A DNA stretch of 64,000 nucleotides, taken from the NCBI RefSeq assembly GCF_001613795.1, contig NZ_LPVZ01000020.1, forward strand, positions 496,001 to 560,000. The letters are read 5' to 3'. This DNA is from Thalassospira sp. MCCC 1A01148. Its GTDB lineage: Bacteria > Pseudomonadota > Alphaproteobacteria > Rhodospirillales > Thalassospiraceae. The translations under genes were made by a program, and so were the position numbers. Positions 14,723-43,319 of the stretch are shown piece by piece. The notes beneath the pieces are model-generated. The model saw nothing but the letters and a program-made list of their open reading frames with translations. It was not told where the DNA came from and did no database searches. Within the stretch, counting starts at the first letter, position 1, and each line of letters opens with the position of its first letter.

Positions 14723-15856
14723 CTAAAGAGCGTCTCTAAGTTTGGTTTTTAGCTCCCATTTGTTTCCCTGCAGTTTCCATATCTCGGGATTCCGCCAGCT
14801 CTCCGCGACCTCCCAAAACCGCGTGAGCGGAATATCAAGGAAATCACAAAAACGCTCAATATATTCTTCATGACACTGGCCATCAAACTTCTCGCAGAGC
14901 TCAATAGCCTCGGAACGAGTTAGCCTGCCAGCGCGAATATCGAGCGACGCTTGTTGCGCCGTCATACCAAAACCAAGTTTAAGGTACTTCAAATATTGGT
15001 TGACGATGACAAAATCCTCATCGAGCATAGAATGATTGTGAATAAAGCCAGTCCTTGCAGGGTCCGCATGACGTCCCTCACGAAGCTTCATGCCATGCTG
15101 CACAGCAAATTCTGCGTTATTGTGCTGGTCATAATCCTCAATGTAGTAACCAAGGTAGATTAGCTTTAGGTCGTTTTTGAGAATTCTGTCTTTTTCCGGA
15201 AAACGGAAAAAGTACATTTTATCTTCAGTATTGTACTCATCTAGAAACGGGGTAATGTCTCCACCACGCAGCGTGTTCATGGAAACAACGTTGATTGCGT
15301 TACCGTCTTTTGAGCCGCCTGCCCCGCTACCAAGAGTAATAAATGGGTTCTCACCTGCACACGCCAGAGGAATGTTTGTTTGTAAAGCTGTGCGCGGCAG
15401 ACTGGCATACAAGGCAATCTCTGAAGGATTGGTCCAATTACCTAGCTTCAAAAATGAGTGTCGTATTGCCCTTCGATATACTTCTGGCGCAGGATTTACT
15501 GTCATCACATCAAACCCTTGCTCTACAAGGTTTGATAAATTTGCGGCCCCCAAATCTGTCTGCTGAATCGGCGGGTACACAAAACTGACGAGGAGTGGAT
15601 TGAGGCCAATCTCTCGCGCAAAAAACGCAAGTCGGGTCGAGTCCTTGCCCCCACTCACACCTATGATTGAGTCGTAACCCAAAGGGGATCGCCGCTCATT
15701 TGCCCAAGCAACGATCTCATCCAACTCTTTCCTGCGCCTGTCCCATTCTGCCGCATCATATGACAATGCAAGGGAACAAGGTGTGCACAACCCTTCTTCA
15801 TTGAACACCTGTCCTGGACGGGTATCAGGCTCTACACAACTCCTACAATATTTCAT
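14723..15856 (-). CDS. N-acetyl sugar amidotransferase (WbpG/PseA-like)
   Basis: The 377-residue PP-loop ATP pyrophosphatase has an N-terminal zinc-ribbon pattern (CRSCVEPDTRPG, GLCTPC) and an intact PP-loop IIGVSGGKDSTRLAFF near residues 66-81. This matches the WbpG/PseA/WbuX family, which converts an N-acetyl group on a nucleotide-activated or free amino sugar to an acetamidino group using ATP and ammonia. Ammonia normally comes from a HisH-like glutaminase through a HisF-like partner, and both are encoded just upstream. It is the last gene of the leftward cluster, 8 bases after the paralogue at 15865-17211. The target may be the nonulosonic acid made in this locus; this is inference. Confidence 0.85.
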   Translation of the reverse strand: MKYCRSCVEPDTRPGQVFNEEGLCTPCSLALSYDAAEWDRRRKELDEIVAWANERRSPLGYDSIIGVSGGKDSTRLAFFAREIGLNPLLVSFVYPPIQQTDLGAANLSNLVEQGFDVMTVNPAPEVYRRAIRHSFLKLGNWTNPSEIALYASLPRTALQTNIPLACAGENPFITLGSGAGGSKDGNAINVVSMNTLRGGDITPFLDEYNTEDKMYFFRFPEKDRILKNDLKLIYLGYYIEDYDQHNNAEFAVQHGMKLREGRHADPARTGFIHNHSMLDEDFVIVNQYLKYLKLGFGMTAQQASLDIRAGRLTRSEAIELCEKFDGQCHEEYIERFCDFLDIPLTRFWEVAESWRNPEIWKLQGNKWELKTKLRDAL

Positions 15857-15864
15857 GAGAACAA

Positions 15865-17211
15865 TTACTTGGTTCCGGTTAGGGTCAAATCTACGGGTTC
15901 GTGCTGCCCAAAGCTTGAGTCCGGCATTTGAGTGGATGCAACCGGCCGACTTGGACCTTTCCCGTCGACAAAACCTTTGCCGATTAAAACATAATTACAA
16001 CGGCCTGAATCAGGCTTTTTGGGTTTAGTGATTCTGTAATCAGCCCATGGTTGGTCCGTCTCAAGACGATCAATATGCAAACCAGTATCACGGCGTCGTT
16101 TCAACATCCATTTGCCTTCAGTGTCTTTTTGCCAAACTCTTGGATCCCTGAACCGGTCGACATTGGTCCAGAGTTCCCTCTCTGTCATCCCGACCCACTC
16201 CGTAAAAGTTGAGATTTCCTTGTCAATCGCTGACGTTATCACATTCTGGTGCCTGTCGACGAATGCCTCCCCCTGTTCTCGCGTTAAACGGTGGAGTCTT
16301 ATTTCTCGACAAGCATGATCCGTAACCTTCCCGTATCCCCATTTTCTAAACTTGATCAGGTCATGTAAGCCGGAATAATGAACACTATTGGGATCACTGT
16401 ATGTATCAAACGTTCTATCTTGTCTGACCGTTTCGTATTGATATAGATCGATCATCAATTCGTTTTGTCGACGGCTATCCCAGCGCAGATAATTGTTCAG
16501 ATAAATCCCACGAACACCAACGGCCTCCAATTCTTCATCTTCGGGATATCGGAATATGCCGGTGTTATACGCCTCAAACGATGGGGCCCCCTTGATCAAG
16601 TCTTCTATTTCCATTCCCATCAGGTCATGTTCTTTTCTATATTTGCGTGTCATCTCGACTTTCTGCAAATGAGAGAACATACCCACCTGATCAACGCCTT
16701 GGTGAGCCCCCCAAACAATCAATGGTATCTTGAACTGGATAGCCAACCGAACTGGCCATACAGTCTGTCCCGCCAAGACATGCCAATAGATGCTCCCGAG
16801 TTGTTTGATTGATTGCCGTGTTAGCGCCTGCACGGTCTTAGACGATACATTCATCCCCATCATGTCGCAGTCGAACGCCTGGCGCAGATAAGCCAGGTTC
16901 CGGATACCAGTCTCGGTATTGTAGTGACCATTATAAAACGCAAGGAGAGGCTTCAAACCCAGCACATTTTTGACAACATGCACCATAAAGTATGCATCTC
17001 GACCACCGTCTACTGGCACGATGCAATCATAACTCCGTCCAGATTTGGATTTGTAGCTTGATGTCAACGCCTTCAATTCATCAAAACGCGCATGCCAATC
17101 AATCAAATCCTTCTCTTCATGCACGCGACATCCGCTACAAATCCCCTCATCATCAATAACAATGTTGAGAGGATGCACTTCTGTATAGAGGCACCGGCGG
17201 CACTGTTTCAT
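15865..17211 (-). CDS. N-acetyl sugar amidotransferase paralogue with degenerate PP-loop
   Basis: The 448-residue protein shares the Cys-pair start (CRRCLYTEVHP, EGICSGC) and overall layout of WbpG/PseA enzymes. Its PP-loop reads CIVPVDGGRDAYFMVHVV, where the family has SGGKDS; the Ser and Lys are lost. It also has a C-terminal extension with a Lys/Pro-rich tail. It may be a pseudoenzyme partner of the intact paralogue downstream, or use a modified nucleotide site. Its start overlaps the HisF-like stop by 4 bases, so the HisH-HisF-amidotransferase genes are translationally coupled, which argues that it is the direct ammonia acceptor. Confidence 0.78.
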   Translation of the reverse strand: MKQCRRCLYTEVHPLNIVIDDEGICSGCRVHEEKDLIDWHARFDELKALTSSYKSKSGRSYDCIVPVDGGRDAYFMVHVVKNVLGLKPLLAFYNGHYNTETGIRNLAYLRQAFDCDMMGMNVSSKTVQALTRQSIKQLGSIYWHVLAGQTVWPVRLAIQFKIPLIVWGAHQGVDQVGMFSHLQKVEMTRKYRKEHDLMGMEIEDLIKGAPSFEAYNTGIFRYPEDEELEAVGVRGIYLNNYLRWDSRRQNELMIDLYQYETVRQDRTFDTYSDPNSVHYSGLHDLIKFRKWGYGKVTDHACREIRLHRLTREQGEAFVDRHQNVITSAIDKEISTFTEWVGMTERELWTNVDRFRDPRVWQKDTEGKWMLKRRRDTGLHIDRLETDQPWADYRITKPKKPDSGRCNYVLIGKGFVDGKGPSRPVASTQMPDSSFGQHEPVDLTLTGTK

Positions 17212-18053
17212 ATTTTTTCTCGCTCCACATGAACAAACCCCAGATCGTCCAGCCAGCTCTCATCTCTTTTCATCAACCGGTCATCCTGCCCTATCTTCGA
17301 CAGATCGTGATTGAACGGAAGGTCTTGCCGCATTCTGAAACCCTGACGATGTATCGCTTCCTTCAAGATTGCGACACTGTGTTCTGTGTGGTTGAGAATG
17401 TTGCCCGCTGCGATAGCTGCAACACTTGTGTCTTTTAAGCACTTCACGGCATGAGCACTGTGCCCAATTCCTCCCATCGCTATTACAGGCACAGTAACCG
17501 CACGGCTAACTTCTGCGAGCAAACCAATATCGTAGCCTGATTGGCTTCCGTCTTTCTTCATATTGTGTAACAGAAGTTCGCCTGCGCCGTTCTCACTCAA
17601 GAAAACAGCCCGTTCGACCGGGTCAATCGGCAAATCACCACACACTGTCGCAGTTCTGTCGTGATAATCGACACCCGCTACTACCGCTTGACGCCCATAA
17701 TGCTCCGTGATGTTCTGCAGGAAGAGGATATCCCCTGAAGCTTCGGTTACAACCACCTTATCCACGCCAACCGCGAACACCCTGTGTACGTCAGAGATTT
17801 CTTGTAACCCGCCACCGTACGACATAGGAACAAATGCCTTGCTGGCAATGCTCTTGATCATCTCAATATCCGGGCCTCTCTTGCCGCGGTTCGGCGAGAT
17901 ATCCAAGAGACATATCTCGTCAATGCCCCACCGATTTAGGAATTCAGCACAAATCGCCGGATCACCAATTGGCAGGTATCTTCGAAAACCAAAGCTCTGA
18001 ACAGCGACGCCGTTCAAGACCAAGATGCTTCCGATCAATCGCCGAATAGCCAT
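17208..18053 (-). CDS. hisF: HisF-like ammonia-channel subunit for sugar amidotransferase
   Basis: The 281-residue (beta-alpha)8 barrel of HisF type has phosphate-binding turns (MSYGGGLQ, IAMGGIGHS, AIAAGNIL). The first catalytic Asp of histidine-pathway HisF (PCLDV) is replaced in GSILVLNGV. The second Asp is kept in VVAGVDYHD. The protein therefore probably does not cyclise imidazoleglycerol phosphate but serves as ammonia conduit, as WbuZ/HisF2 proteins do in O-antigen loci. It sits between the HisH-like glutaminase and the amidotransferase, overlapping both ends. Confidence 0.82.
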   Translation of the reverse strand: MAIRRLIGSILVLNGVAVQSFGFRRYLPIGDPAICAEFLNRWGIDEICLLDISPNRGKRGPDIEMIKSIASKAFVPMSYGGGLQEISDVHRVFAVGVDKVVVTEASGDILFLQNITEHYGRQAVVAGVDYHDRTATVCGDLPIDPVERAVFLSENGAGELLLHNMKKDGSQSGYDIGLLAEVSRAVTVPVIAMGGIGHSAHAVKCLKDTSVAAIAAGNILNHTEHSVAILKEAIHRQGFRMRQDLPFNHDLSKIGQDDRLMKRDESWLDDLGFVHVEREKI

Positions 18054-18700
18054 TACTCAAGGCCTAACTGTTTCCGGCACAGGTTGCTGAAGTTTCTCAG
18101 CATAATCAGTCCGGTTCTCTGGCTTTTTTCTGGATGGGATTGCACACCAAAAATGTGCCCTTGCTGCACCACCGATGAAAACTCACCATGGTAGTTTGAC
18201 GAAGCCGCTGTCACGCCAGGAAGAACCTCCATCTGGAATTCATGGTCAAAATAGGTCATATCCCCAGTTTCAATACGCTGAAATAATGGACACTTCGCAT
18301 CCTTGATCTCTACTTCATTCCAACCCACATGAGGGCGTATGATACTTTTGTCCTCTCTACGGTCGGGCGCGACAAGTGTTATGTCTGCATCGATCCAGCC
18401 CAGCCCAGCTACACCACCGCTTTCCTCAGAACTGCGCCCCATCAGTTGCATACCAAGACAAATACCCATGAATGGAATTTTTCTTTCAAAAACAGCTTCT
18501 TCCATTGGATGGATCAAATCTTTACTTCGTAAGTTCTGCATTGCTTTGCCAAAACTTCCGACACCTGGAAGGAATACCCCAGAAAGACCAGTAAATTCTC
18601 TCTGTACACTCACAATTCGGCACTCCACATCAAGAAACCGAAAGGCGGAGATCACCGATCCAAGATTGCCCATACCGTAGTCTATTACACCAATGGTCAT
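18053..18700 (-). CDS. hisH: HisH-like glutaminase (class I amidotransferase)
   Basis: The 215-residue class I glutaminase has the nucleophile elbow FMGICLGMQLM (Cys) and the His-Glu pair in GVQSHPEKSQ. Its opening GVIDYGMGNLGSVISAFRFL is HisH-like. It hydrolyses glutamine to feed ammonia through the adjacent HisF-like barrel. Location in a glycan cluster rather than a his operon, next to two WbpG/PseA-like proteins, points to sugar amidation. Stop and HisF start overlap by one base. Confidence 0.88.
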   Translation of the reverse strand: MTIGVIDYGMGNLGSVISAFRFLDVECRIVSVQREFTGLSGVFLPGVGSFGKAMQNLRSKDLIHPMEEAVFERKIPFMGICLGMQLMGRSSEESGGVAGLGWIDADITLVAPDRREDKSIIRPHVGWNEVEIKDAKCPLFQRIETGDMTYFDHEFQMEVLPGVTAASSNYHGEFSSVVQQGHIFGVQSHPEKSQRTGLIMLRNFSNLCRKQLGLE

Positions 18701-28457: not shown

Positions 28458-29606
28458 TCAATAAGTGATAGTCTTATGTAGTGCCGGACTAAGGGCACAA
28501 AGGACTTCAGCGATTTTCTCGCCAGAATGCCCGTCGCCATATAGGTCATTTGGTTCGAAGAACCCATGTTTGATCTGGCTTTGAGCAGCTTCAATGATTG
28601 CGCCCTTTTCCATCGGAACGTCACAGACGTTTTGCCCTTTCAAACGACTATGCTGCCGCGAACCGATATTTACTGCCGGAACCCCCAGCCATGCTGCCTC
28701 GCGCACACCGCTTGATGAGTTACCGATGAGACATGCTGAATTTCGCAACAGAGATGCATAAAGCTTGAGAGGAAGTCCCCCTACTGCAACGGCATCGGCA
28801 ATATTTTCTAGCAACAATCTTGACCAAGCCTGCTCAAAGTGCTGGGCTCCCGCATCATCATTCGGACGCACCCACACAGAAGGCAGCTTCAACTCTAAAA
28901 CAGCATCTATCAAGATGTCGTATTGAGAGGAAGCAGATTCATACTCGGTGACAACAGGGTGATGGGACACAACGACATAGGGCTCGCTAAGGCTCGGACA
29001 AGCACCAAGCCCTCTCCCCTCTAAATAAGCTCTAACCGCATCCAAATCAGCAAAACCGTTTAAGCGTAAAAGATCCAAGCTGGGCGTACCGCAAATATGT
29101 ATTGAATTTTCTGGCTCGCCCATCTTGATCAACCGTGCCGCAGCATCACGGTTCGCCGGGAAATGATAATGCGCAAGCTTGGAAACAGCATGACGAATGC
29201 GTTCATCAATCGAGCCTGAAATCTCTCCACCTTCGAGATGTGCAATGAGAACATTCTGACAAACGGCAGCCTGCGCAAACGCTAAAACTTCATACCGATC
29301 AGCAATCAAGAAAACTACATCAGGACGATGCACTTCAAGCACTTCGGCAGTTAACTCCGTAGCGCGCGCGGCAGAACGCGAAATATCCAAGGGCGTTTTA
29401 CTGCCAGTAATGTAATCCAGTTCGGCGATGATTTCAAAACCTGTAGCACGAATTTCCTCAATTGTTTGACCATACTCAGGATCAAGTAACGCGCCGCCGA
29501 CAGCGAGCTGCACTTTGACATCTTTGCGATGTTCCAATGCAGTAAGGATTGAACTGACCTTTCCGAAATTTCCTCGTGTCGTCAGGAAGAAACATAACTT
29601 TTTCAT
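28458..29606 (-). CDS. neuC: UDP-N-acetylhexosamine 2-epimerase (hydrolysing), NeuC/LegG-like
   Basis: The 382-residue GT-B-fold epimerase has KLCFFLTTRGNFGKVSSILT at the N-terminus and PDVVFLIADRYEVLAFAQAA followed by HLEGGEISGSIDE near the middle. SSGVREAAWLGVPAVNIGSR carries the UDP-binding C-terminal elements. NeuC hydrolyses UDP-GlcNAc to ManNAc; LegG does the same with a diacetylated bacillosamine precursor. It overlaps the NeuB-like stop by 4 bases, so the two are coupled. Presence of LegG-type versus NeuC-type chemistry needs comparison with characterised enzymes. Confidence 0.9.
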   Translation of the reverse strand: MKKLCFFLTTRGNFGKVSSILTALEHRKDVKVQLAVGGALLDPEYGQTIEEIRATGFEIIAELDYITGSKTPLDISRSAARATELTAEVLEVHRPDVVFLIADRYEVLAFAQAAVCQNVLIAHLEGGEISGSIDERIRHAVSKLAHYHFPANRDAAARLIKMGEPENSIHICGTPSLDLLRLNGFADLDAVRAYLEGRGLGACPSLSEPYVVVSHHPVVTEYESASSQYDILIDAVLELKLPSVWVRPNDDAGAQHFEQAWSRLLLENIADAVAVGGLPLKLYASLLRNSACLIGNSSSGVREAAWLGVPAVNIGSRQHSRLKGQNVCDVPMEKGAIIEAAQSQIKHGFFEPNDLYGDGHSGEKIAEVLCALSPALHKTITY

Positions 29607-30637
29607 GAGTTGATGCTCTCCGTCAACATATCGTCTGCCAATTGGGTATCTGCTTGAACTTCACGGCGCAAAGTTCTACCAATTAAAGACTCTAACTTGG
29701 CCGCCGGTATCCCATTTCCTGGGCGTTTGGCAGTAAGGTCGCCATCGGAGAGCACATGCCCTGCGGACAAATCTCGCGCTACAACAACTGACTTCAACGC
29801 CCAGTCCATACCAGCGACCTCACAAGAAGCAGGTTTCTTTTCGCGGAGACCAATCATCTTTTCCATACGCCTGACATCGCTTACTAGCTGGGCAAGATCC
29901 TCTGGGCCTGCTGAAACTCTCCAATCCTGAGCATTTGGGACATCACGCAAAATAGTAATGTGCTTCTCTATAACTTTTGCGCCTCGCGCTACGGCGCCCA
30001 GCACGGCTAAACCATCAACGGTATGGTCGGAATAGCCGACTGGACCCGCGAAAATATCCTTCATGCTTTCCATCGCCGCCAAATTTACATCATCGGCTGG
30101 TGTTGGATAACTCGTAACACAATGGAGAAGCGCAAGCTGGTCAACATCTGCTTGCGCCATCAATTTCACAAGCTGTAGAACTTCTTCATTGGAATACATA
30201 CCCGTCGACACAATCATCGGCTTTCCAAATTCGGCAAGCTTGCGCAGAAACCAAGGATTCCCCTTTTCACCGGATCCCACCTTGATTGCAGGCAAATCCA
30301 GCTCGGCGATCCAGCTTAATCTGGATGTGTCATGCGCTGTTGCCATGAATGACATGCCGCGACTTTCAGCTCGCTCTTTTAGTTCAAGCGCCTGATCAAG
30401 TGTCAAATTTCTGGGCCGCAGCCTGTCTTTCCAATCAGCCGCATCATTGGAAATAAGTTCGTCAACGTCAAAAATCTGGGTTTTGAAGACGTCTGCTTTG
30501 CTTTCCGCAGCCAAATCAACCAGATCTCTTGCTAAACTCATGTCGCCGAAATGAGCAACTCCAGCCTCGGCTATGAATAAACATGGATTATCTTCACCGA
30601 CCTGACGTTCGCCTATACGAAAACTTTTTCTAAACAT
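29603..30637 (-). CDS. neuB: Nonulosonic acid synthase (NeuB/LegI family)
   Basis: The 344-residue protein has the TIM-barrel NeuB domain: FIAEAGVAHFGDMSLARDLV, KTQIF, LPAIKVGSGE, VSTGMYS, LLHCVTSYPTP, VGYSDHT and EKHIT. A C-terminal SAF (antifreeze-like) domain (ARDLSAGHVLSDGDLTAKRP, then GNGIPAAKLESLIGR) follows. It condenses phosphoenolpyruvate with a six-carbon N-acyl sugar to give a nine-carbon nonulosonate. Its start overlaps the ABC-transporter stop, placing sugar synthesis and export in one transcript. Confidence 0.94.
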   Translation of the reverse strand: MFRKSFRIGERQVGEDNPCLFIAEAGVAHFGDMSLARDLVDLAAESKADVFKTQIFDVDELISNDAADWKDRLRPRNLTLDQALELKERAESRGMSFMATAHDTSRLSWIAELDLPAIKVGSGEKGNPWFLRKLAEFGKPMIVSTGMYSNEEVLQLVKLMAQADVDQLALLHCVTSYPTPADDVNLAAMESMKDIFAGPVGYSDHTVDGLAVLGAVARGAKVIEKHITILRDVPNAQDWRVSAGPEDLAQLVSDVRRMEKMIGLREKKPASCEVAGMDWALKSVVVARDLSAGHVLSDGDLTAKRPGNGIPAAKLESLIGRTLRREVQADTQLADDMLTESINS

Positions 30638-32489: not shown

Positions 32490-33515
32490 TTAGATGCTAA
32501 TGACATGACACCCTCTAAGCCTTGCTTCTGCAATGAAACCGCCAGGCAAACCGATGATATAGTCAGCAGAGAGCATTGCATCTTTTGCACTACCAAAATC
32601 ACTAACAGAAATTAACACTCCAAACTCTTTCTCTAACATATAGCTGTATTTACCAGCATTTTCGCGCGGATGCGGTCGTATTATCAGATGAGGATTCTTT
32701 ATCTGATCTGTCACACCCAATTCATCCATCTTCCCTTCGCCTATTAGTCGAGCCAACCTTTCGGCAGTCAAAACTTCGTCAAACTCGACATTCCGACCTT
32801 TCCCCCGAAGTTCCCTGCCTACAAGAGAAGGATATAAAATTACAGTCGCATCTTTGCCTACTGCCCAAGCCTCCCGACAATCCATACTACGACTGTCATC
32901 TGTATCCAAAGTTGCTTCATGCAACTGGTCAAAAAACACGACCCGTTGTGTTTTAAAAACCTCGTGTGCTGACGCACTACGCGATTCCGTGCTAGTTGGT
33001 ACGATCAATAGATGCGGTATGAAATCCTCACCTTTGATATCTTTGAGCCGGATATTGATGTTGAAATTCACATCTGCCAAACAAATGATTGGGACGTTGT
33101 TCGCTCGCGCTTGCGCCCACAAAGCACGAACCCGAACTGCGTCAACGTCATCAAGCCCGGTTATCAAAAGCTCCGGACGAATTCTGTCGACAACGTTCTT
33201 TGCGAATTCGATTTCTGCTTCAAGAGACTTTTCATTACCAACTTGATCAATTTCGATCCGACTTTTCTCAAAGCATTTAGAACTTCCTTCGTTAAATGCC
33301 CAAACAGAACTCTGCCAAATCAACACATGGAACTTGGCAAGCTGCATAGGTGGCAGAGAATGATTTTTCAATACCCCGTCCAATCTTCCACGCAAGTCGG
33401 GAAAATTGTTGCTGGTATATATCTTTAGGAAAGCAACAAGCGTATTTGCGGCACCAGGGTCCCGACTTGCAAGCAAAACTGGGAGCTGATCGTCCGGGCG
33501 CTCATAGACCGTCAT
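32490..33515 (-). CDS. Putative GT-B glycosyltransferase-like protein of unknown family
   Basis: I do not recognise a named family for this 341-residue protein. It opens with PVLLASRDPGAANTLVAFLK, has a mid domain of ELLITGLDDVDAVRVRALWA, and a C-terminal half with PHLIIRPHPRENAGKY and LSADYIIGLPGGFIAEARLR. The Arg-Pro-His-Pro motif and the Gly-Gly-x-x-x-Glu turn are common in capsule-type GT-B transferases. It is co-translated with the aminotransferase upstream (4-base overlap), so a role in the same sugar or in its transfer is likely. Confidence 0.6.
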   Translation of the reverse strand: MTVYERPDDQLPVLLASRDPGAANTLVAFLKIYTSNNFPDLRGRLDGVLKNHSLPPMQLAKFHVLIWQSSVWAFNEGSSKCFEKSRIEIDQVGNEKSLEAEIEFAKNVVDRIRPELLITGLDDVDAVRVRALWAQARANNVPIICLADVNFNINIRLKDIKGEDFIPHLLIVPTSTESRSASAHEVFKTQRVVFFDQLHEATLDTDDSRSMDCREAWAVGKDATVILYPSLVGRELRGKGRNVEFDEVLTAERLARLIGEGKMDELGVTDQIKNPHLIIRPHPRENAGKYSYMLEKEFGVLISVSDFGSAKDAMLSADYIIGLPGGFIAEARLRGCHVISI

Positions 33516-34816
33516 TTGACCAGATCTTTGATATTTTCGGCAACTTTCAAAAATGCACTCGCCACGTCATCCAAGTCGTTCTCAGACATACCGGGGCGCA
33601 TGAGCTCATGTGTAATGACTGTCGAGTAATGCGCCTCCTCACAATTTGGACAACTTTGATCCAGATAAGTAGTCTCTGCCTGTTCTGAGGCGCCCTGAAT
33701 AACAGGATGCATTTTGGATCTATAAAATGATTGTTTGTATAAGGGCCTCACATAACCAGCCCCGATTAGAACACCTTCATGCATCCTTAGCTCAGAAGGT
33801 GTCAATTCCGCCTTTACCGCAGCGACATATTGCTCCCTATCAACTCCTGCGACTTTCTGATCAAACTTCAACGGATGTAGGTAGTAGCAATGTGTATCCC
33901 CTTCTCGGACTTCTGGCATCGTTAGGAAAGGAATGTCGCGCAATTTTTTTTCAAGAAAGTGTACGTTCTCTATTCTCTCTTCAATCAGCGCCGGCAACCG
34001 ATCAAGTAGAGACAAAGTGATGGCCGCTTCAATTTCTCCCAACCGAAAGTTATAGCCAACAATGCCACTTAACTTTTCATCGATATGAGTTGGCATTCGA
34101 TCTACCACAGCCTCACTGTGGTTCCTAACCAGCCGCAAACGTTGTGCCAATTCGTCTGAGTTAGTAACCACAACACCACCTTCTCCACAGTGGATATGCT
34201 TGTGATAGTTAAGACTAAAGACCCCCATGTGCCCGATCGAACCAACTTTTCGACCGTTGCATTCTCCCAACGGAGCCTGCGCACAATCTTCAATGACCGT
34301 TAACTTATGTTTTTGGGCCAACGACATAATGGCATCCATGTCAGCTGAACCGCCAAATATGTGTACAACGATGATGCCCTTGGTCTTAGCATTAATCAGA
34401 CGCTCCAACGCAGTTGGACACAAACACCAGCTATCGGGGTCAATATCGCAAAACACGGGTGTAGCACCATTGACGACAGGGGCTACAGCAGATGCCGACA
34501 TTGTATAGGGGGAAACGATAACTTCATCATCTGGACCAAAACCAGCTGCGGCGCAAGCAGCATACAAACCACTGGTGGCAGAGTTCATTGATACGCTGTG
34601 CGCGACGTCAAACATCTGCGCCCATTTTTCCTCAAGCAGTCGAACTTTAGGCCCACCAAGAAAATCCTCATGCCAGGTTCCCAGGTATCTGGATAAAACG
34701 CCGGATTCCATGACAGCCGTTGCCGCATCAATTTCCTTTTGCCCGATTACATTATAACCAGGGAAAGGTTCTGTTCTGACGGGCTCACCACCGAAAATCG
34801 CAAGCTCTTTTGCCAT
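33512..34816 (-). CDS. DegT/DnrJ/EryC1/StrS sugar aminotransferase
   Basis: The 434-residue PLP enzyme starts AIFGGEPVRTEPFPGYNVIG and has VIEDCAQAPLG (PLP-contacting Asp). FSLNYHKHIHCGEGGVVVT places the Schiff-base Lys in the segment HKHIHCGEGG. YNFRLGEIEAA follows. The long C-terminal part includes a Cys pair (QSCPNCEEA) not seen in PseC or LegC. It transaminates a 4-keto or 3-keto nucleotide sugar. The sequence style is nearer to StsC/AHBA-type aminotransferases than to PseC. A 4-keto sugar from the dehydratase at 25427 or the Gfo/Idh product at 34864 are candidate substrates. Confidence 0.85.
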   Translation of the reverse strand: MAKELAIFGGEPVRTEPFPGYNVIGQKEIDAATAVMESGVLSRYLGTWHEDFLGGPKVRLLEEKWAQMFDVAHSVSMNSATSGLYAACAAAGFGPDDEVIVSPYTMSASAVAPVVNGATPVFCDIDPDSWCLCPTALERLINAKTKGIIVVHIFGGSADMDAIMSLAQKHKLTVIEDCAQAPLGECNGRKVGSIGHMGVFSLNYHKHIHCGEGGVVVTNSDELAQRLRLVRNHSEAVVDRMPTHIDEKLSGIVGYNFRLGEIEAAITLSLLDRLPALIEERIENVHFLEKKLRDIPFLTMPEVREGDTHCYYLHPLKFDQKVAGVDREQYVAAVKAELTPSELRMHEGVLIGAGYVRPLYKQSFYRSKMHPVIQGASEQAETTYLDQSCPNCEEAHYSTVITHELMRPGMSENDLDDVASAFLKVAENIKDLVK

Positions 34817-34863: not shown

Positions 34864-35844
34864 CTATTCTTTGAATGAAGAGAAAGTTTTATCTAGTTCA
34901 AATGCGACTTTTTCCTGTTCAACGCACCATGTCCCATCTCGAACCAAGAAGGCTCCTTTCTCGAAGACATCCCTCCAGTTCTGCCAAGCTGCTGGCAATG
35001 CCCGAAATGGATCCAAATTCTCAGATTGGATATCTTCTGGGTAAGCAAAGCCCGTATAAACGGTATGGCTTGATGCAAATCTACGACGAATACGACGCCC
35101 ACCATCTTCCAGACGTACGATGGCATTCTCAAAAAATAGTTCGAGTTCGAAGAAGTTATAATCGACCTTATCAAGTTCTTTTAAACTTACATTTGCTTGG
35201 GGCTCACTGAGCAATCTGACAGAAAAATCACCCCGGCTGTTCATCTGATTCGGAGTAGCTTGTACTTCTCCAAAAAAGTCTGCAAGCAGAACTATCATGT
35301 GCGGACCATTATGACTAATTCCCTTAACAAACCAGCCATTTGCTGACGTCAAACGCCCATATACGCCATCTGCAATCTCTTTTTTTAGAGCCAACAGGCC
35401 TTGGTCCCAAAGGCGGAAATAGTTAACCCCAACTTGAACTTTATTTCTGTTAGCCAACTTAAGAAGTCTAGAACTAATCTCATAATTGGAGGTAAAGGGC
35501 TTCTCACAGAAGATACCACTGACACCATTTTTTAAGCAAAAATCGACATGTTCCTCGTGCAGTTCTGTAGGAGAGGAAATAACTGCCAAATCGAGCTTTG
35601 GTATTTCTACATTTAAGTCATGAACGCTACGAACCTCGACAGCTTCAGGGAAATTCTCTTTTACCCGTCTTGTTTTGCTCTCATCAGGATCAACGCAAAG
35701 GACCACTTGGAAACCACCAATATTTAACAATGCGCCCAAGTGAGTCAAAGCGCCGTCAACCTCTCGCGCATTTGTTTTTGCGTCATAGCCCGCAGCTATT
35801 GCCCCGCATCCTATCAGCGCTACCCGGATCAATATTGAACCCAC
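34864..35844 (-). CDS. Gfo/Idh/MocA family NAD(P)-dependent oxidoreductase
   Basis: The 326-residue protein has an N-terminal Rossmann fold (RVALIGCGAIAAGYDAKTNA) and the EKP signature in SGIFCEKPFTSN. The C-terminal beta-sheet domain follows. In glycan clusters such enzymes oxidise or reduce a sugar ring carbon (often C3) before transamination, which suits the DegT aminotransferase next door. Its 5' end overlaps the cytidylyltransferase-like gene by 16 bases. Confidence 0.85.
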   Translation of the reverse strand: MGSILIRVALIGCGAIAAGYDAKTNAREVDGALTHLGALLNIGGFQVVLCVDPDESKTRRVKENFPEAVEVRSVHDLNVEIPKLDLAVISSPTELHEEHVDFCLKNGVSGIFCEKPFTSNYEISSRLLKLANRNKVQVGVNYFRLWDQGLLALKKEIADGVYGRLTSANGWFVKGISHNGPHMIVLLADFFGEVQATPNQMNSRGDFSVRLLSEPQANVSLKELDKVDYNFFELELFFENAIVRLEDGGRRIRRRFASSHTVYTGFAYPEDIQSENLDPFRALPAAWQNWRDVFEKGAFLVRDGTWCVEQEKVAFELDKTFSSFKE

Positions 35845-36569
35845 TTGTGCTGGATTTTATCATTCAACGCCCTCAGATCCGGCCGCGAGGCAACAAGTTG
35901 AAGAATGTCTTTCAACTCGAAATTTGGGTTGTTCGGGTAGAGATCTTCGTAAACTGCGGTCACCAACTTATAGTCATCCTCGGTATCAACGGTGAGCCGG
36001 AGATTTGGATCGAATAGTTCTGCAGATGCTTCAATCCATTCCAAACTGTATAGTTCTGGATGCCTGTAGATGAATAGGCTAACGTGCTCCCGTTCTTCCA
36101 AATCGTTGGTCCTAGCGAAAGCATCTGCCAGAACGCGCGTAGAAAAAACCTGTACATCCATCCCAATCGGGAAACAACGCTTATAGATGTTCGAACAATA
36201 GTCAGCCCCAGAAATACGATATTTTTCAAATACTTTGTCGCATATTCCGGGATCAATCAAAGGGCAATCACCTGTGGTTTCTATGATATGCTCAACATCG
36301 TAATACTTTGCGGCACCGAGAACACGGGACATTACGTCTTCTTCACTTCCGCGAAAGCATAGTATGCCAAGTCGACTGGCTTCTGCAGCAAGAACGTCAT
36401 CCGTTGCATTTTCGGTAGTACAGAGGATGATTTCATTAGCGCATTGAATTCTTCGTAAGCGTTCTACCATCAACTCAAGCAGTGTTCGTCCCATGACAGG
36501 TTTTAAGACCTTGCCGGGCAGACGGGTCGATGTCATCCTTGCCTGGATCGTAATTGCTGTATGAACCAT
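35829..36569 (-). CDS. SpsF-like cytidylyltransferase family protein
   Basis: The 246-residue nucleotidyltransferase fold has AITIQARMTSTRLPGKVLKP at the N-terminus, then IILCTTENATDDVLAAEA and IIETTGDCPLIDPGICDKV. This is the SpsF/spore-coat type group related to KdsB and acylneuraminate cytidylyltransferases. It probably activates a sugar or alcohol phosphate of the glycan with CTP. A start at 36569 is preferred over 36596 because an AAAGAGA site precedes it. It is divergent from the GNAT gene at 36644. Confidence 0.78.
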   Translation of the reverse strand: MVHTAITIQARMTSTRLPGKVLKPVMGRTLLELMVERLRRIQCANEIILCTTENATDDVLAAEASRLGILCFRGSEEDVMSRVLGAAKYYDVEHIIETTGDCPLIDPGICDKVFEKYRISGADYCSNIYKRCFPIGMDVQVFSTRVLADAFARTNDLEEREHVSLFIYRHPELYSLEWIEASAELFDPNLRLTVDTEDDYKLVTAVYEDLYPNNPNFELKDILQLVASRPDLRALNDKIQHKWVQY

Positions 36570-36643
36570 TATGTTTCTCTTTATCTGTCCAGTCATAAAA
36601 ACTTTAGCTTCAAACGCCTAAGACAAACAGGTCTTCGATTAGA

Positions 36644-37159
36644 ATGTCCCAGCATTATGCGCCTCCCGCCACGCCATCGGTTACTATTCGTCCAGCAGAG
36701 ATGTCTGATGTCTCAGAGACATGGGTCCGTTGGCTAAATGACCCCAAGGTCACCCAGTATTCCAAACAAAGGCTTAAGACGCACACATTAGACAGCCAGA
36801 GCGCTTTCCTTTCGCAGCGCCTTTTAGACGAATCCCGCGTTGTCTATCTCGCCTTTCTGTACGGAACGCATATTGGTACCGGAGAAATTCTTTATATCCG
36901 GAACTCCGATGAGGGCGCATGTGCGGAAGTCAGCTACATGATCGGAGAGAGGTGTTGCTGGGGCAAAGGCATAGGGCGCCAACTCGTAAACCTTCTGTGT
37001 AAGGAAGCTTTCAAGAATAAAAATATCAGGAAAGTCCAGGCTGGCGCTCATCGCGAAAATATCGGCTCGCACAAAGTCCTTCTATCTAACGGATTCAAAA
37101 TATCAAAAGAGAGAAATTCCGACACATACTTCATTTTGGACAGGGAAGACTTTATTTAA
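36644..37159 (+). CDS. GNAT N-acetyltransferase (RimJ/PseH-like)
   Basis: The 171-residue protein has the RimJ/RimL-type start VTIRPAEMSDVSETWVRWLN and the acetyl-CoA loop VSYMIGERCCWGKGIGRQLV (Q/R-x-x-G-x-G/A). VQAGAHRENIGSHKVLLSNG follows in the last third. PseH and LegH are relatives that acetylate amino-sugar nucleotides, which would suit the aminotransferase in this locus. It is the only rightward gene in the block, flanked by leftward genes, so it must have its own promoter in 36597-36643. Confidence 0.85.
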   Translation: MSQHYAPPATPSVTIRPAEMSDVSETWVRWLNDPKVTQYSKQRLKTHTLDSQSAFLSQRLLDESRVVYLAFLYGTHIGTGEILYIRNSDEGACAEVSYMIGERCCWGKGIGRQLVNLLCKEAFKNKNIRKVQAGAHRENIGSHKVLLSNGFKISKERNSDTYFILDREDFI

Positions 37160-39697: not shown

Positions 39698-40660
39698 CTA
39701 AAAAACCAAAGCAGGATCATGCGGATACCCGGTATCTCTTACTACACCCTCCTTGGCATATCGCTCCCAATCGATAGGACGGTCAGCGGGATAGAACTGA
39801 AAAACGATTGCTGTTCTGGTAAAGCCGGGAGCCGGGTATCCTCCGGCATGCTGAAGATTGTTCAAAAATGGCACAACAAGACCAGGCTTTGGTGAGCGGG
39901 GTTGAACCACATATTTTTTCAGGGAACTCTCAGCTTTGGACTTTACGGTCCGGGAAATATATTCTCGTCCAAGCTGACCTTCTGGACGCGCTCCCAAATG
40001 TCCGATAGCGTTGCGCAAACCTCTTCGAGCATCTTTCCAGACTTCGACGGATTTTTCCCAAGGCAAAAGTTCAATACCGCCGCTCTCAGGGCCCATCTCG
40101 TGCAAATAAAACAGCATGTTGACACAGCTCCCCGGACCAGAGTCACTGTGCCACCCTTGCGATCCTTGGCGTTGTCCAAGGTTAGTCGATTGGTACAATA
40201 CAGCTTGCCAGACCTTGAAATCACAGCCGAAGTAACAAGTCAGAAAGTCTGTCATAACATTTGAAAACAATTCTTCTATTTCAGGAAACTCAACCCAGAA
40301 GTTTCCCGAAAAGTTCTTATTGCCAGAACCTCCACTTTTTTCGACCCAGATATCTGACGCACCTTGAATCTTGCCCCATATCTTATTTGCAAGATTTTGA
40401 GTTTGTTCAGTTTGTAAAGAGGTAAAGCCGTTGACTTTGAAGTCATCAACCTTGTCTCTAATGTGGTTGGAGACCTCAATATCTTGCCCATACGCCCGCT
40501 GGCACTGCTCCCAATAGGCGCTGTATTGAGATGCGTTGCGCCATCCAATTGTCGTCCGGTGTTTATCCACAGAACGAAAATCGAGGAAGTCATTTATCCC
40601 TGCACGCCACCATGCGGGCTTCCCAAGGTGGGATAGGCTAAAACTATCGTTCAATTCCAT
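39698..40660 (-). CDS. Phytanoyl-CoA dioxygenase (PhyH) family Fe(II)/2-oxoglutarate enzyme
   Basis: The 320-residue cupin-like dioxygenase has the Fe ligands HxD in SQGWHSDSGPGSCVN and a distal His in NLQHAGGYPAPGFTR. An Arg follows that would bind 2-oxoglutarate. Family members hydroxylate unactivated carbons in secondary metabolites and lipids. Between a methyltransferase and the amidotransferase-amidase fusion, it could hydroxylate a sugar, an N-acyl group or a lipid of the glycan; the substrate is inferred only from location. Confidence 0.82.
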   Translation of the reverse strand: MELNDSFSLSHLGKPAWWRAGINDFLDFRSVDKHRTTIGWRNASQYSAYWEQCQRAYGQDIEVSNHIRDKVDDFKVNGFTSLQTEQTQNLANKIWGKIQGASDIWVEKSGGSGNKNFSGNFWVEFPEIEELFSNVMTDFLTCYFGCDFKVWQAVLYQSTNLGQRQGSQGWHSDSGPGSCVNMLFYLHEMGPESGGIELLPWEKSVEVWKDARRGLRNAIGHLGARPEGQLGREYISRTVKSKAESSLKKYVVQPRSPKPGLVVPFLNNLQHAGGYPAPGFTRTAIVFQFYPADRPIDWERYAKEGVVRDTGYPHDPALVF

Positions 40661-40706: not shown

Positions 40707-43319
40707 CTATCTTAGAGCTTCAACAACGTTTGCCTCTGCCGGCACCATATTCAACGACCGCAAACTTTGCAAAAACCTGATCAAACCGATGTCTCGATAT
40801 TTTCTTGCGACAATTTGAGCACCGAACGGCATTCCACGACTATCAGCAAAAACCGGTAAGTTCACTGCCGGCATATGGGTCAATGTCCACATCAACCCTG
40901 GATCTCTATTTTCCACTTCTCCGCGTTGTGGAGCTGCTCCCGCCGTCGATAAACAGATCAGAGCGTCATAATTGGCCATAAAGCCATCCATCTCATCAAT
41001 CATTCTGGTCTGCTCTGCCAAGGCCCCTTTATATTGAGCAGGTGTAACTTCCAGACCTTTCTCAATCAAACGGTACATGGTCTCTGACATTTGATCTTTA
41101 GAGTCGAACTCAGATTGGAAGTAATAGGCTAGACATTTGTTATATAGAGTTTCATGAACTTCATGACTCTTGTTCATCATCACCGGCAATGAAACGTCCT
41201 CTACCACTAGATCGTTGCTCGTCGATTTCAGCTCCTCGACCCAATCAGTGATCGCAGCCTTGGCATAAGGCTCCGCAAAATCCCATGTATGGGTTTTAAC
41301 AAAACCAATCTTCCACGGACCATCTGGATTGATTTTTTGCTTTGCGGGATTTTCAAGAATGCTGTTAATAAAAGGATAGTCTTCGCCATGCACTCGTAAT
41401 GCGTTGAAAGTGCGCTCCATATCTTCCATATGCCTCACAAAGAAGCCAATGGTGTCAAGGGTGTCGGTTGTCTTTAAAACACCAGTTCGCGGCATGACAC
41501 CGTAAGATGGCTTCATTCCGTACACGCCACAAAAGCTGGCAGGCCTGATAATCGAAGCAGCCGTTTGCGATCCCAAAGCAATCGGGACCATGCCCGTCGC
41601 TACCGCAGCAGCAGACCCACTTGAAGAAGTCCCTGGGGTCAACTTTGAGTCATGCGGGTTTAGGGTTTCGTTAAGCTCGTGAACAGCGAACTCGGCCGTT
41701 ACCGTTTTCCCTGCCACACATGCTCCACTTCTCTTAAGGTTGAATACCATTCGAGAATCGTTGCCGGGGGTGAAGTCTTTCCATTGCGGGCTTCCCATTT
41801 CTGTTGGGAAATCAATCGTGTTAAAAATATCCTTTACACCAACCGGTATCCCTTCAAGCAGCCGCATCGGTTGCCCAGAAACCAAATGAACCTCGCTCGC
41901 TCGAGCTGCAGAGTACATCTTGGCTTCGTCAAACCCTACCCACGCCTGTACAGCATGGTTTACGTTCCCAATTCTTTCAGCAAAGGCCTTTGCTACATCC
42001 GTGGGCGTCACAAGACCTTCTCGGAACGCTTCATGGATATGCCTGACACTCCAGTCCCAGATGGGTTTCCGTTCATCTCCCCCACTTGAGCCTTCTGTAA
42101 AAGATCCCGCGAAAACTTCATCTTCAAAAATTGGTGGAGCTTTGGGAGATAACTTCTCGAGAATCTGCTGCGGGAAAGGCTTCAGTACCTCTTTGTTCGG
42201 AGAAGTCTTTTCGGTGATTGGTATATTCTGTTCTTTCAACTGAGGCAGGCGGTGTTTTTCCATGATCTCATAGAATTCCTCCTCAGAGTACCCTGTTATC
42301 TGGAGGTAATAATCGAGAGCTTCTGGACGTTGCGTATCGTGTTTTCGAACCAGATCAAAACCTTCTTCCCGTGTGAGCAACCCATTTCGGACGTCAACGC
42401 TTGAATGGAATGAAGATCGCCCCCAACCACGCTTCAAATAACAGGTGAAATCGTGAACGCCAGGCATGATGCACTCTGCACTCTTATAACCCTTATATGC
42501 GTTTTCCACTTCGGTTTCGCGCCAACCATAGGTGTCGCGAAGGAACTCAGTCTGTCGCTCATCATCCCAAAAAATGTAATCGCCCAAATGCATAATTTTG
42601 ATTTTTGCGTTATCGAAATCTTCATCATTGGGCAATTGGTACATGTGCAGGTCTTTAGGCGTAATGTACTCACAGACCATCTCATCCGGAGTTTTCTTTG
42701 CCGAAAACTCCGTAAAATAGTCTTTGCTGTAGCACGGCTTAACCGAAGTGAAGTAATCCCCTCGCTGCGTAACTTCGGCAACAGACTCACCATAAATTAT
42801 CAGGGGAATATTGAAGTTCATGGCAATATGTATTGGAAACGCCCCAACGCCAGAATGGCACTGCCAACATGCATCACCAATCATCGGAAGCGACCGTTTG
42901 GCCAAACGACCAAGCAAATCTCTGTTTGGGGTGAACTGGATATGATCGACATTAAATGCCTCAAGACAGTTCATTAGGTTGTAGTAGCCGGTCTCGCTTA
43001 ACCAATTATGATTATAGGTTACAGTCAAGGGCTTAACGCCCAATACGTTAACCAAAACGTGGAGCTGAAACATACTGTCTTTGCCACCACTAATTGGAAC
43101 GATACAATCATAGTTTGTACCAGAAGCTTGCTTTACTTCCTTCATCAAACCTTCGAGGGCCCTCCAGCGTTCAGCCCAATCAATATGCATTTTTTGTTCG
43201 GATGACCGGCAGATCCGGCACATACCCATACCATCATCCTGATACCCTTCCTCTGTCTCAGGCATGCAGCAACGCGTGCAGTATTTCATATCGAAGAGAG
43301 GTTTGCCGCTAGCATTCAT
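40707..43319 (-). CDS. N-acetyl sugar amidotransferase fused to amidase-signature hydrolase
   Basis: The 870-residue fusion has two parts. Residues 1-380 form a WbpG/PseA-like amidotransferase with zinc-ribbon pairs (Cys14/Cys17 in CTRCC, Cys34/Cys37 in CRIC) and an intact PP-loop ISGGKDSMF (residues 76-84). After a Pro/Ser/Gly-rich linker (about 365-420), residues 420-870 form a GatA-type amidase. Its triad is visible: Lys496 in PVGVKDIF, Ser565 in PGTSSSGSAAAV and nucleophile Ser589 in TAASIIRPAS, spaced as in GatA. The N-half would amidate an N-acetyl sugar with ATP; the C-half could release the ammonia it needs, as GatA does for tRNA amidation. ATG 43319 has a GGAG site. The start frame and single open frame exclude a sequencing-joined pair. 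Confidence 0.9.
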   Translation of the reverse strand: MNASGKPLFDMKYCTRCCMPETEEGYQDDGMGMCRICRSSEQKMHIDWAERWRALEGLMKEVKQASGTNYDCIVPISGGKDSMFQLHVLVNVLGVKPLTVTYNHNWLSETGYYNLMNCLEAFNVDHIQFTPNRDLLGRLAKRSLPMIGDACWQCHSGVGAFPIHIAMNFNIPLIIYGESVAEVTQRGDYFTSVKPCYSKDYFTEFSAKKTPDEMVCEYITPKDLHMYQLPNDEDFDNAKIKIMHLGDYIFWDDERQTEFLRDTYGWRETEVENAYKGYKSAECIMPGVHDFTCYLKRGWGRSSFHSSVDVRNGLLTREEGFDLVRKHDTQRPEALDYYLQITGYSEEEFYEIMEKHRLPQLKEQNIPITEKTSPNKEVLKPFPQQILEKLSPKAPPIFEDEVFAGSFTEGSSGGDERKPIWDWSVRHIHEAFREGLVTPTDVAKAFAERIGNVNHAVQAWVGFDEAKMYSAARASEVHLVSGQPMRLLEGIPVGVKDIFNTIDFPTEMGSPQWKDFTPGNDSRMVFNLKRSGACVAGKTVTAEFAVHELNETLNPHDSKLTPGTSSSGSAAAVATGMVPIALGSQTAASIIRPASFCGVYGMKPSYGVMPRTGVLKTTDTLDTIGFFVRHMEDMERTFNALRVHGEDYPFINSILENPAKQKINPDGPWKIGFVKTHTWDFAEPYAKAAITDWVEELKSTSNDLVVEDVSLPVMMNKSHEVHETLYNKCLAYYFQSEFDSKDQMSETMYRLIEKGLEVTPAQYKGALAEQTRMIDEMDGFMANYDALICLSTAGAAPQRGEVENRDPGLMWTLTHMPAVNLPVFADSRGMPFGAQIVARKYRDIGLIRFLQSLRSLNMVPAEANVVEALR

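Follow-up and report, generated by a model that had tools for sequence, protein, structure and literature searches.

WbuX-type N-acetyl sugar amidotransferases (the WbuX/WbpG/PseA family, TIGR03573) are canonically partnered by HisH and a HisF-like protein (HisF2/WbuZ), a class I glutaminase and a TIM barrel whose folds are unrelated to that of amidase-signature enzymes, and this acetamidino set is presumed to deliver ammonia to WbuX. In GatCAB, an amidase-signature protein, GatA, passes ammonia on to a partner that uses ATP. Another nitrogen source, an AsnB-like gene, has been proposed for the acetamidino group of a Tannerella forsythia nonulosonate (PMC6120980); that gene is of the asparagine-synthetase type, and the accessible part of the paper mentions no amidase-signature domain. 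Here, we analyzed a 64,000-nucleotide stretch of the genome of Thalassospira sp. MCCC 1A01148 (contig NZ_LPVZ01000020.1, positions 496,001 to 560,000; the window), in which one gene encodes a WbuX-type domain fused to an amidase. Our comparisons indicate that the product is probably a self-contained sugar N-acetimidoyl (acetamidine) synthase, in which the amidase would supply ammonia instead of HisH-HisF. Like canonical family members, it matches the family model over its full length and above the cut-off, with a PP-loop and a tetracysteine motif; unlike them, it belongs to a separate clade whose members have an amidase fused or near and no HisH or HisF within 3 kb.

One open frame for two domains

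The fused gene lies on the minus strand (43319 to 40707) and has an ATG start and 870 codons (870 amino acids); in the same frame, the plus strand at 40707 to 43319 carries many stops. An earlier annotation of this DNA (the sequence-only reading) had already placed both domains in one open frame, to which we add the strand. Its description of the N-terminal domain as intact and WbpG/PseA-like was also borne out: residues 11 to 354 (positions 42258 to 43289, minus strand) matched TIGR03573 from position 1 to 344 of 344 with 305.1 bits (cut-off, 203.2) and included the PP-loop SGGKDS at residues 77 to 82 and a tetracysteine motif (C14, C17, G32-x-C34, and C37). The latter corresponds to the motif CxxC...[GN]xCxxC, as defined for WbuX-type enzymes in the available text of PMC10607449. 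C14, C17, C34, C37, and S77-G-G-K-D-S82 were invariant in 49/49 WbuX rows of the clade described below. The sole solved relative of this half at an E value of 0.01 was LpNASAT (8WEX; E = 1.6e-33), whose structure is described in the same paper; in its available text, a term search found “ammonia” once and no HisH, HisF, glutamin-, amidase, or fusion.

The C-terminal half (residues 442 to 843; positions 40791 to 41996, minus strand) is an amidase-signature domain, matching PF01425 with 232.7 bits against a gathering cut-off of 27 and carrying K496, S565, S589, and R592. An AlphaFold2 model of all 870 residues, built from an input of 56 rows that were mostly half-length, had a predicted local distance difference test score (pLDDT) of 91.7 and a predicted template modeling score (pTM) of 0.90, and the pLDDT fell below 50 only in a linker stretch at residues 394 to 415 (positions 42075 to 42140, minus strand). 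By a reading of the score made with no control, the model predicts a defined packing of the two halves, since free orientation of two similar-sized domains would be expected to give a much lower pTM.

Within the WbuX half, a second CxxC (CWQC here) occurs at residues 151 to 154. Both of its cysteines are 96% conserved in the amidase-associated clade and occur in a minority of rows outside it (12 to 14 of 76 at most); this CxxC is a possible extra metal site.

Partner genes across the WbuX tree

A recruitment scan of one genome for each of 84,980 species yielded 48 loci with a relative (L008 to L055). In WbuX-only surveys, TIGR03573 gave 55 matches over its cut-off in 289 genomes of the class to which the window belongs and 28 in 247 genomes from the phylum of L009; the neighborhoods of these matches were analyzed, except for one match broken by stops. 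Profiles for WbuX, the amidase, HisF, and HisH were run over the surveyed loci, L008 to L055, and the window, and 166 distinct WbuX domains were pooled in one tree, a quick search with long branches flagged. A clade of 50 WbuX domains, with a Shimodaira-Hasegawa-like approximate likelihood ratio test (SH-aLRT) support of 100, contained all 45 of the 166 that had the amidase fused or within 3 kb. None of these 50 had HisH or HisF within 3 kb, nor did the clade show the canonical arrangement of HisH plus HisF close to WbuX. Outside the clade, HisH and/or HisF lay within 3 kb of 90 of the 116 WbuX domains (some sharing one pair), and this amidase lay that close to none (0/116). The tree requires one change between partner types. 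Five clade rows had neither partner; four of them have a contig end no more than 250 bases downstream, and the fifth is L043. Besides the window, the WbuX-only class survey added to the amidase clade two loci with the amidase, L124 and L143 (the latter with the sequence of L054), and two cut by contig ends, L141 (with the sequence of L053) and L156.

A branch with an SH-aLRT of 99 set the 45 paired amidases apart from 12 others, among which there were long branches. Over 43 pairs, distances between WbuX domains were correlated with those between amidases (r = 0.837), as high a value being reached in 0 of 2,000 permutations, in a comparison with strongly mixed taxa and no species-tree control. 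By this comparative evidence, a role of the amidase as the putative ammonia source for WbuX is well supported. The proposal of the sequence-only reading that the amidase releases ammonia in place of HisH-HisF thereby stands as a comparison and remains putative biochemically.

The domain-pair search across genomes that the same reading had suggested uncovered a family in which fusion is the exception. Among the 48 recruited loci, 3 were fused (L008, L009, and L010), 41 had a separate amidase, and 4 had none (L043, L047, L049, and L053); among all the loci found, fusion was restricted to the window and these three Desulfo- relatives. Neighboring separate genes are the common state, and fusion is the rarer one. 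Of 42 separate pairs (L124 included), 39 had a possible ATG, GTG, or TTG start between 30 bases before and 20 bases after the first stop; the gene order was reversed in L048 and L050, and in L168 (genome G317), the two genes were separated by 2.2 kb. In the window and its fused relatives, the tail of the unfused WbuX is retained and followed by a variable linker, so that fusion via stop loss is plausible. The window, L008 to L010, and the unfused L035 grouped together in one tree (SH-aLRT, 96), and this set was not starred in a larger tree; the fusion may have arisen once or repeatedly.

Many of these relatives are contigs of metagenome-assembled genomes (MAGs), a circumstance that would favor a fortuitous neighborhood or an assembly error. 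We regard such an origin as highly improbable, for it is largely contradicted by the spread and conservation of the pair: the amidase-partnered rows, mostly from MAGs, bear 19 phylum names, including one archaeal name, both gene orders occur, and phage contigs have the pair. A frameshift or assembly artifact in the window was likewise considered and rejected, because the three fused relatives come from separate assemblies, one of them that of Solidesulfovibrio alcoholivorans DSM 5433, a named strain with no MAG label on its record.

Closer to the window, the distribution is sparse. Across 398 genomes of its phylum, with two candidates scored per genome, a clade-like WbuX half plus the amidase (E = 1e-60) was found only in the window's genome and in G317. 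Three genomes of the same genus were among those listed: one matched in the amidase only, and the other two not at all. A plasmid search gave no match at E = 1e-60. The fused gene looks accessory and was probably acquired.

The canonical supply was also followed genome-wide. In 17 of the 48 genomes with recruited loci (completeness not given), a profile search found no WbuZ/HisF-like match of more than 100 bits; full-length HisF/WbuZ-like matches in these 48 genomes scored about 200 to 304 bits, and the window's own WbuZ scored 176. Most of the 17 genomes had weaker matches, of 70 to 99 bits, to the WbuZ profile, which may be HisA-like; such matches, with no HisF-level match, were seen in the genomes of L021, L024, L026, L033, L034, L036, L037, and L042. 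The window's genome has a canonical set plus a further HisF-like gene. The set (positions 14723 to 18700, minus strand), which the sequence-only reading had omitted, comprises two WbuX genes (14723 to 15856 and 15865 to 17211), a WbuZ/HisF-like gene (17208 to 18053), and HisH (18053 to 18700), and its WbuX genes fall outside the amidase clade. These two WbuX genes (14723 to 17211) are tandem and divergent and share one HisF/HisH pair, and the first has a long branch. Elsewhere, the canonical supplier is itself sometimes fused to WbuX, as HisF and WbuX share single open frames in L129, L147, and L187 (838, 773, and 693 amino acids) and probably also in G919:C8 and G923:C46 (700 and 682 amino acids by coordinates and frame lengths).

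Amidase relatives and the proposed ammonia supply

The sequence-only reading had called the amidase half GatA-type, a name that proved loose. By fold, GatA does come first: Foldseek with the AlphaFold model ranked a GatA model at the top and malonamidase E2 next. By sequence, the best solved relatives were chains of malonamidase E2 (1obi, 1ock, 1o9o, and others; E of about 1e-54), followed by GatA (8.5e-36), and the domain scored 176.4 bits with the gatA model TIGR00132 against a cut-off of 481.1, for which reason “GatA” was rejected as its name. Its partner, moreover, is a PP-loop sugar enzyme rather than the GatB of GatCAB. Identity with malonamidase E2 was 28 to 29% in structural alignments. 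K496, S565, and S589 aligned to K62, S131, and S155 of malonamidase E2 (numbering counted by hand), residues that PDB titles name in the mutants K62A, S131A, and S155C, and R592 aligned to Arg158, which presumably binds the substrate carboxylate. GatA has a different pattern after the nucleophile. While malonamidase E2 thus shares the positions of the triad and the arginine, it differs in being a free-standing hydrolase.

These residues were conserved in 47 aligned amidases found beside or within a WbuX; this set includes the amidase of the window and one duplicate (L143, equal to L054). Lys occupied the K496 position in 47/47, Ser the S565 position in 46/46 (one gap), and Ser the S589 position in 45/45 (two gaps), in agreement with the complete Lys496-Ser565-Ser589 triad of the sequence-only reading; R592 and Q585 were invariant in 45 of the 47 rows, that is, in all without a gap there. 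Just before the nucleophile, at residues 587 to 588, the stretch in the window reads TAAS, and position 588 was Gly in 43 of 45 rows.

In the mechanism that we propose, the N-terminal WbuX domain would use ATP to activate the N-acetyl group of an activated sugar or nonulosonate, as its family suggests, and ammonia would displace AMP to give an amidine. The C-terminal amidase, by its Lys-cisSer-Ser triad, would cleave an amide and pass the ammonia, presumably channeled between the halves, to the WbuX domain, so taking the place of both the HisH glutaminase and the HisF barrel of canonical WbpG/WbuX. Candidate amide donors include a small carboxylated amide, glutamine, and asparagine.

Several observations weigh against this reading. 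Ammonia supply by the amidase is drawn from comparison and is putative in function, and by sequence, the amidase is nearer a malonamate hydrolase than a glutaminase. Loci L008 to L055 were recruited with patterns from both halves, so that amidase-bearing loci were favored, and the trees were quick searches with long branches flagged. L043 has no amidase despite sufficient downstream DNA, the only such row among the 50, although about 11 to 13 kb from the clade WbuX its genome carries another WbuX together with a HisF-like gene, which may explain the absence; among phage contigs (see below), L216 has a clade WbuX and no amidase was seen on it. Canonical sets are also at hand in some genomes, with HisH and HisF beside the other WbuX genes 22 kb off in the window's genome and a WbuX-HisH-HisF set about 4 to 6 kb from the amidase pair in L009 and L039, so that cross-supply may occur in these three. 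Finally, 26 of the 116 WbuX outside the clade lack both partners in their neighborhood, and missing HisH/HisF alone therefore proves little.

Because such WbuX genes exist, free ammonia may suffice for the WbuX domain, and the amidase could then be a separate pathway enzyme that hydrolyzes an amide or N-acyl group, carried by the sugar or by another metabolite, at a stage preceding or following amidination. The nearest solved amidase is tied by PDB titles to malonamate as substrate, and other acyl-modifying genes (a deacetylase and a formyltransferase) stand in the window's cluster, both in keeping with this alternative. It leaves unexplained, however, why the amidase replaces HisH/HisF throughout the clade, where no row mixes the two partner types within 3 kb, and why the two genes are so closely spaced or fused; we consider it unlikely.

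Recurring cassette, phage copies, and implications

Proteins around 47 loci were clustered into neighbor families, named from family representatives. Recurring among them were a DegT aminotransferase (34 loci), a GNAT acetyltransferase (32), a Gfo/Idh dehydrogenase (29), family C5 (28), NeuB (27), and a KdsB-like cytidylyltransferase (17), with CMP-sugar synthetase genes among the recurrent neighbors. At least 19 of these 47 loci had GNAT as the gene immediately upstream of WbuX, where it could make the N-acetyl substrate. The order KdsB-Gfo-DegT-C5-GNAT-WbuX-amidase was seen in L021, L024, L026, L033, L036, and L037 (five Ignavibacteria and one labeled Bacteroidetes). Family C5 gave no Pfam or NCBIfam match for two members tested, and the fold of a modeled member from L036 was nearest to UDP-GlcNAc 2-epimerase. 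The gene families suggest a chemistry running from ketone to amine to N-acetyl to acetamidine (N-acetimidoyl).

A module for acyl or amide transfer in a different reaction, with a product other than acetamidine, would be another role for the amidase half, and one that we find quite improbable. In its favor, at 40 WbuX positions at least 90% of the clade shares one residue that is present in no more than 20% of the rows outside, so that the WbuX domain may have changed substrate. Retention of the PP-loop and tetracysteine in every clade row examined speaks against this role, as does the recurrence of GNAT and DegT in the numbers given above, as expected for an N-acetyl substrate.

The window matches each cassette family between 32.5 and 37.2 kb, with NeuB at 29.6 kb, all at least 3.5 kb from the fused gene. 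The GNAT N-acetyltransferase (36644 to 37159; 112 bits to the profile of cluster C3, whose representative is a GNAT) is on the plus strand, opposite to the fused gene. The others are on the minus strand: the KdsB-like cytidylyltransferase (35829 to 36596; PF02348; 308.9 bits to cluster C7), the Gfo/Idh/MocA dehydrogenase (34864 to 35844; PF01408; 202 bits to cluster C4), a DegT (PseC-like) sugar aminotransferase (33512 to 34816; 524 bits to cluster C2, and 223 bits to TIGR03588, under its 423.5 cut-off), the family C5 member (32490 to 33515; 77 bits), and a NeuB-like nonulosonate synthase (29603 to 30637; 296 bits to cluster C6, and 291 bits to TIGR03569, under its 399.65 cut-off). Of the neighbors from which the sequence-only reading had argued for an unusual surface sugar, the two adjacent methyltransferases, the formyltransferase, and the deacetylase are supported by Pfam matches in the window but are rarely or never recurrent elsewhere, and its “PhyH” (39698 to 40660, minus strand) gave no match to any Pfam or NCBIfam family at E = 0.001.

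The cassette also reaches viral contigs. A whole-protein scan of IMG/VR contigs found three (L205 to L207), and a second scan, with a WbuX alignment that contained these, found eight, namely, the same three plus five new ones (L212 to L216). Since L206/L207 and L214/L215 are near-copies, about six are distinct. The amidase was encoded on 7 of the 8, including 4 of the 5 new ones, that of L212 being truncated where the contig ends. When six of the viral WbuX were tested, each grouped within the amidase clade (SH-aLRT, 100), whose 56 rows include none partnered by HisH/HisF; all four viral amidases checked retained K, S, S, and R. HisH/HisF profiles had no match on the viral stretches, which are fragments. 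Structural genes were neighbors on 6 of the 8 contigs: L205 and L213 (major tail and tape measure), L206 (terminase and portal), L207 (major head), L212 (major tail), and L216 (terminase); three proteins tested from L215 matched no structural family. Gfo/Idh, DegT, GNAT, and PseF-like or PseB-like genes occurred on several of the viral contigs. Six named phage records matched, in the amidase half only, at 28 to 31% identity.

We tentatively extend the proposal, leaning slightly toward doubt, to an amidase with a malonamidase-like pocket that channels ammonia, perhaps from a non-glutamine donor, to a sugar amidine synthase, in a HisH/HisF-free cassette of dehydrogenase, aminotransferase, acetyltransferase, WbuX, and amidase genes that moves between phyla and within runs of phage structural genes. 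The phage copies raise the question of why sugar genes stand among phage structural genes; if the proposal is true, the cassette would enable phages to decorate their hosts or their own particles with amidine sugars.

The open-access literature, outside which most subscription journals lie, yielded no description of a WbuX-amidase pair or, as the sequence-only reading had supposed, of such a fusion, which is weak evidence of novelty; the arrangement appears to be a so far undescribed route by which nitrogen enters surface sugars. If true, ammonia for a known modification of surface sugars can come from a second supplier, unrelated to the first, by the same logic as that of GatA in tRNA amidation. 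The fused form offers one protein to purify, so that the ammonia question is directly testable. Even a genome that lacks HisF could then encode acetamidine sugar synthesis and would be missed by predictions of amidinated glycans based on HisH/HisF.

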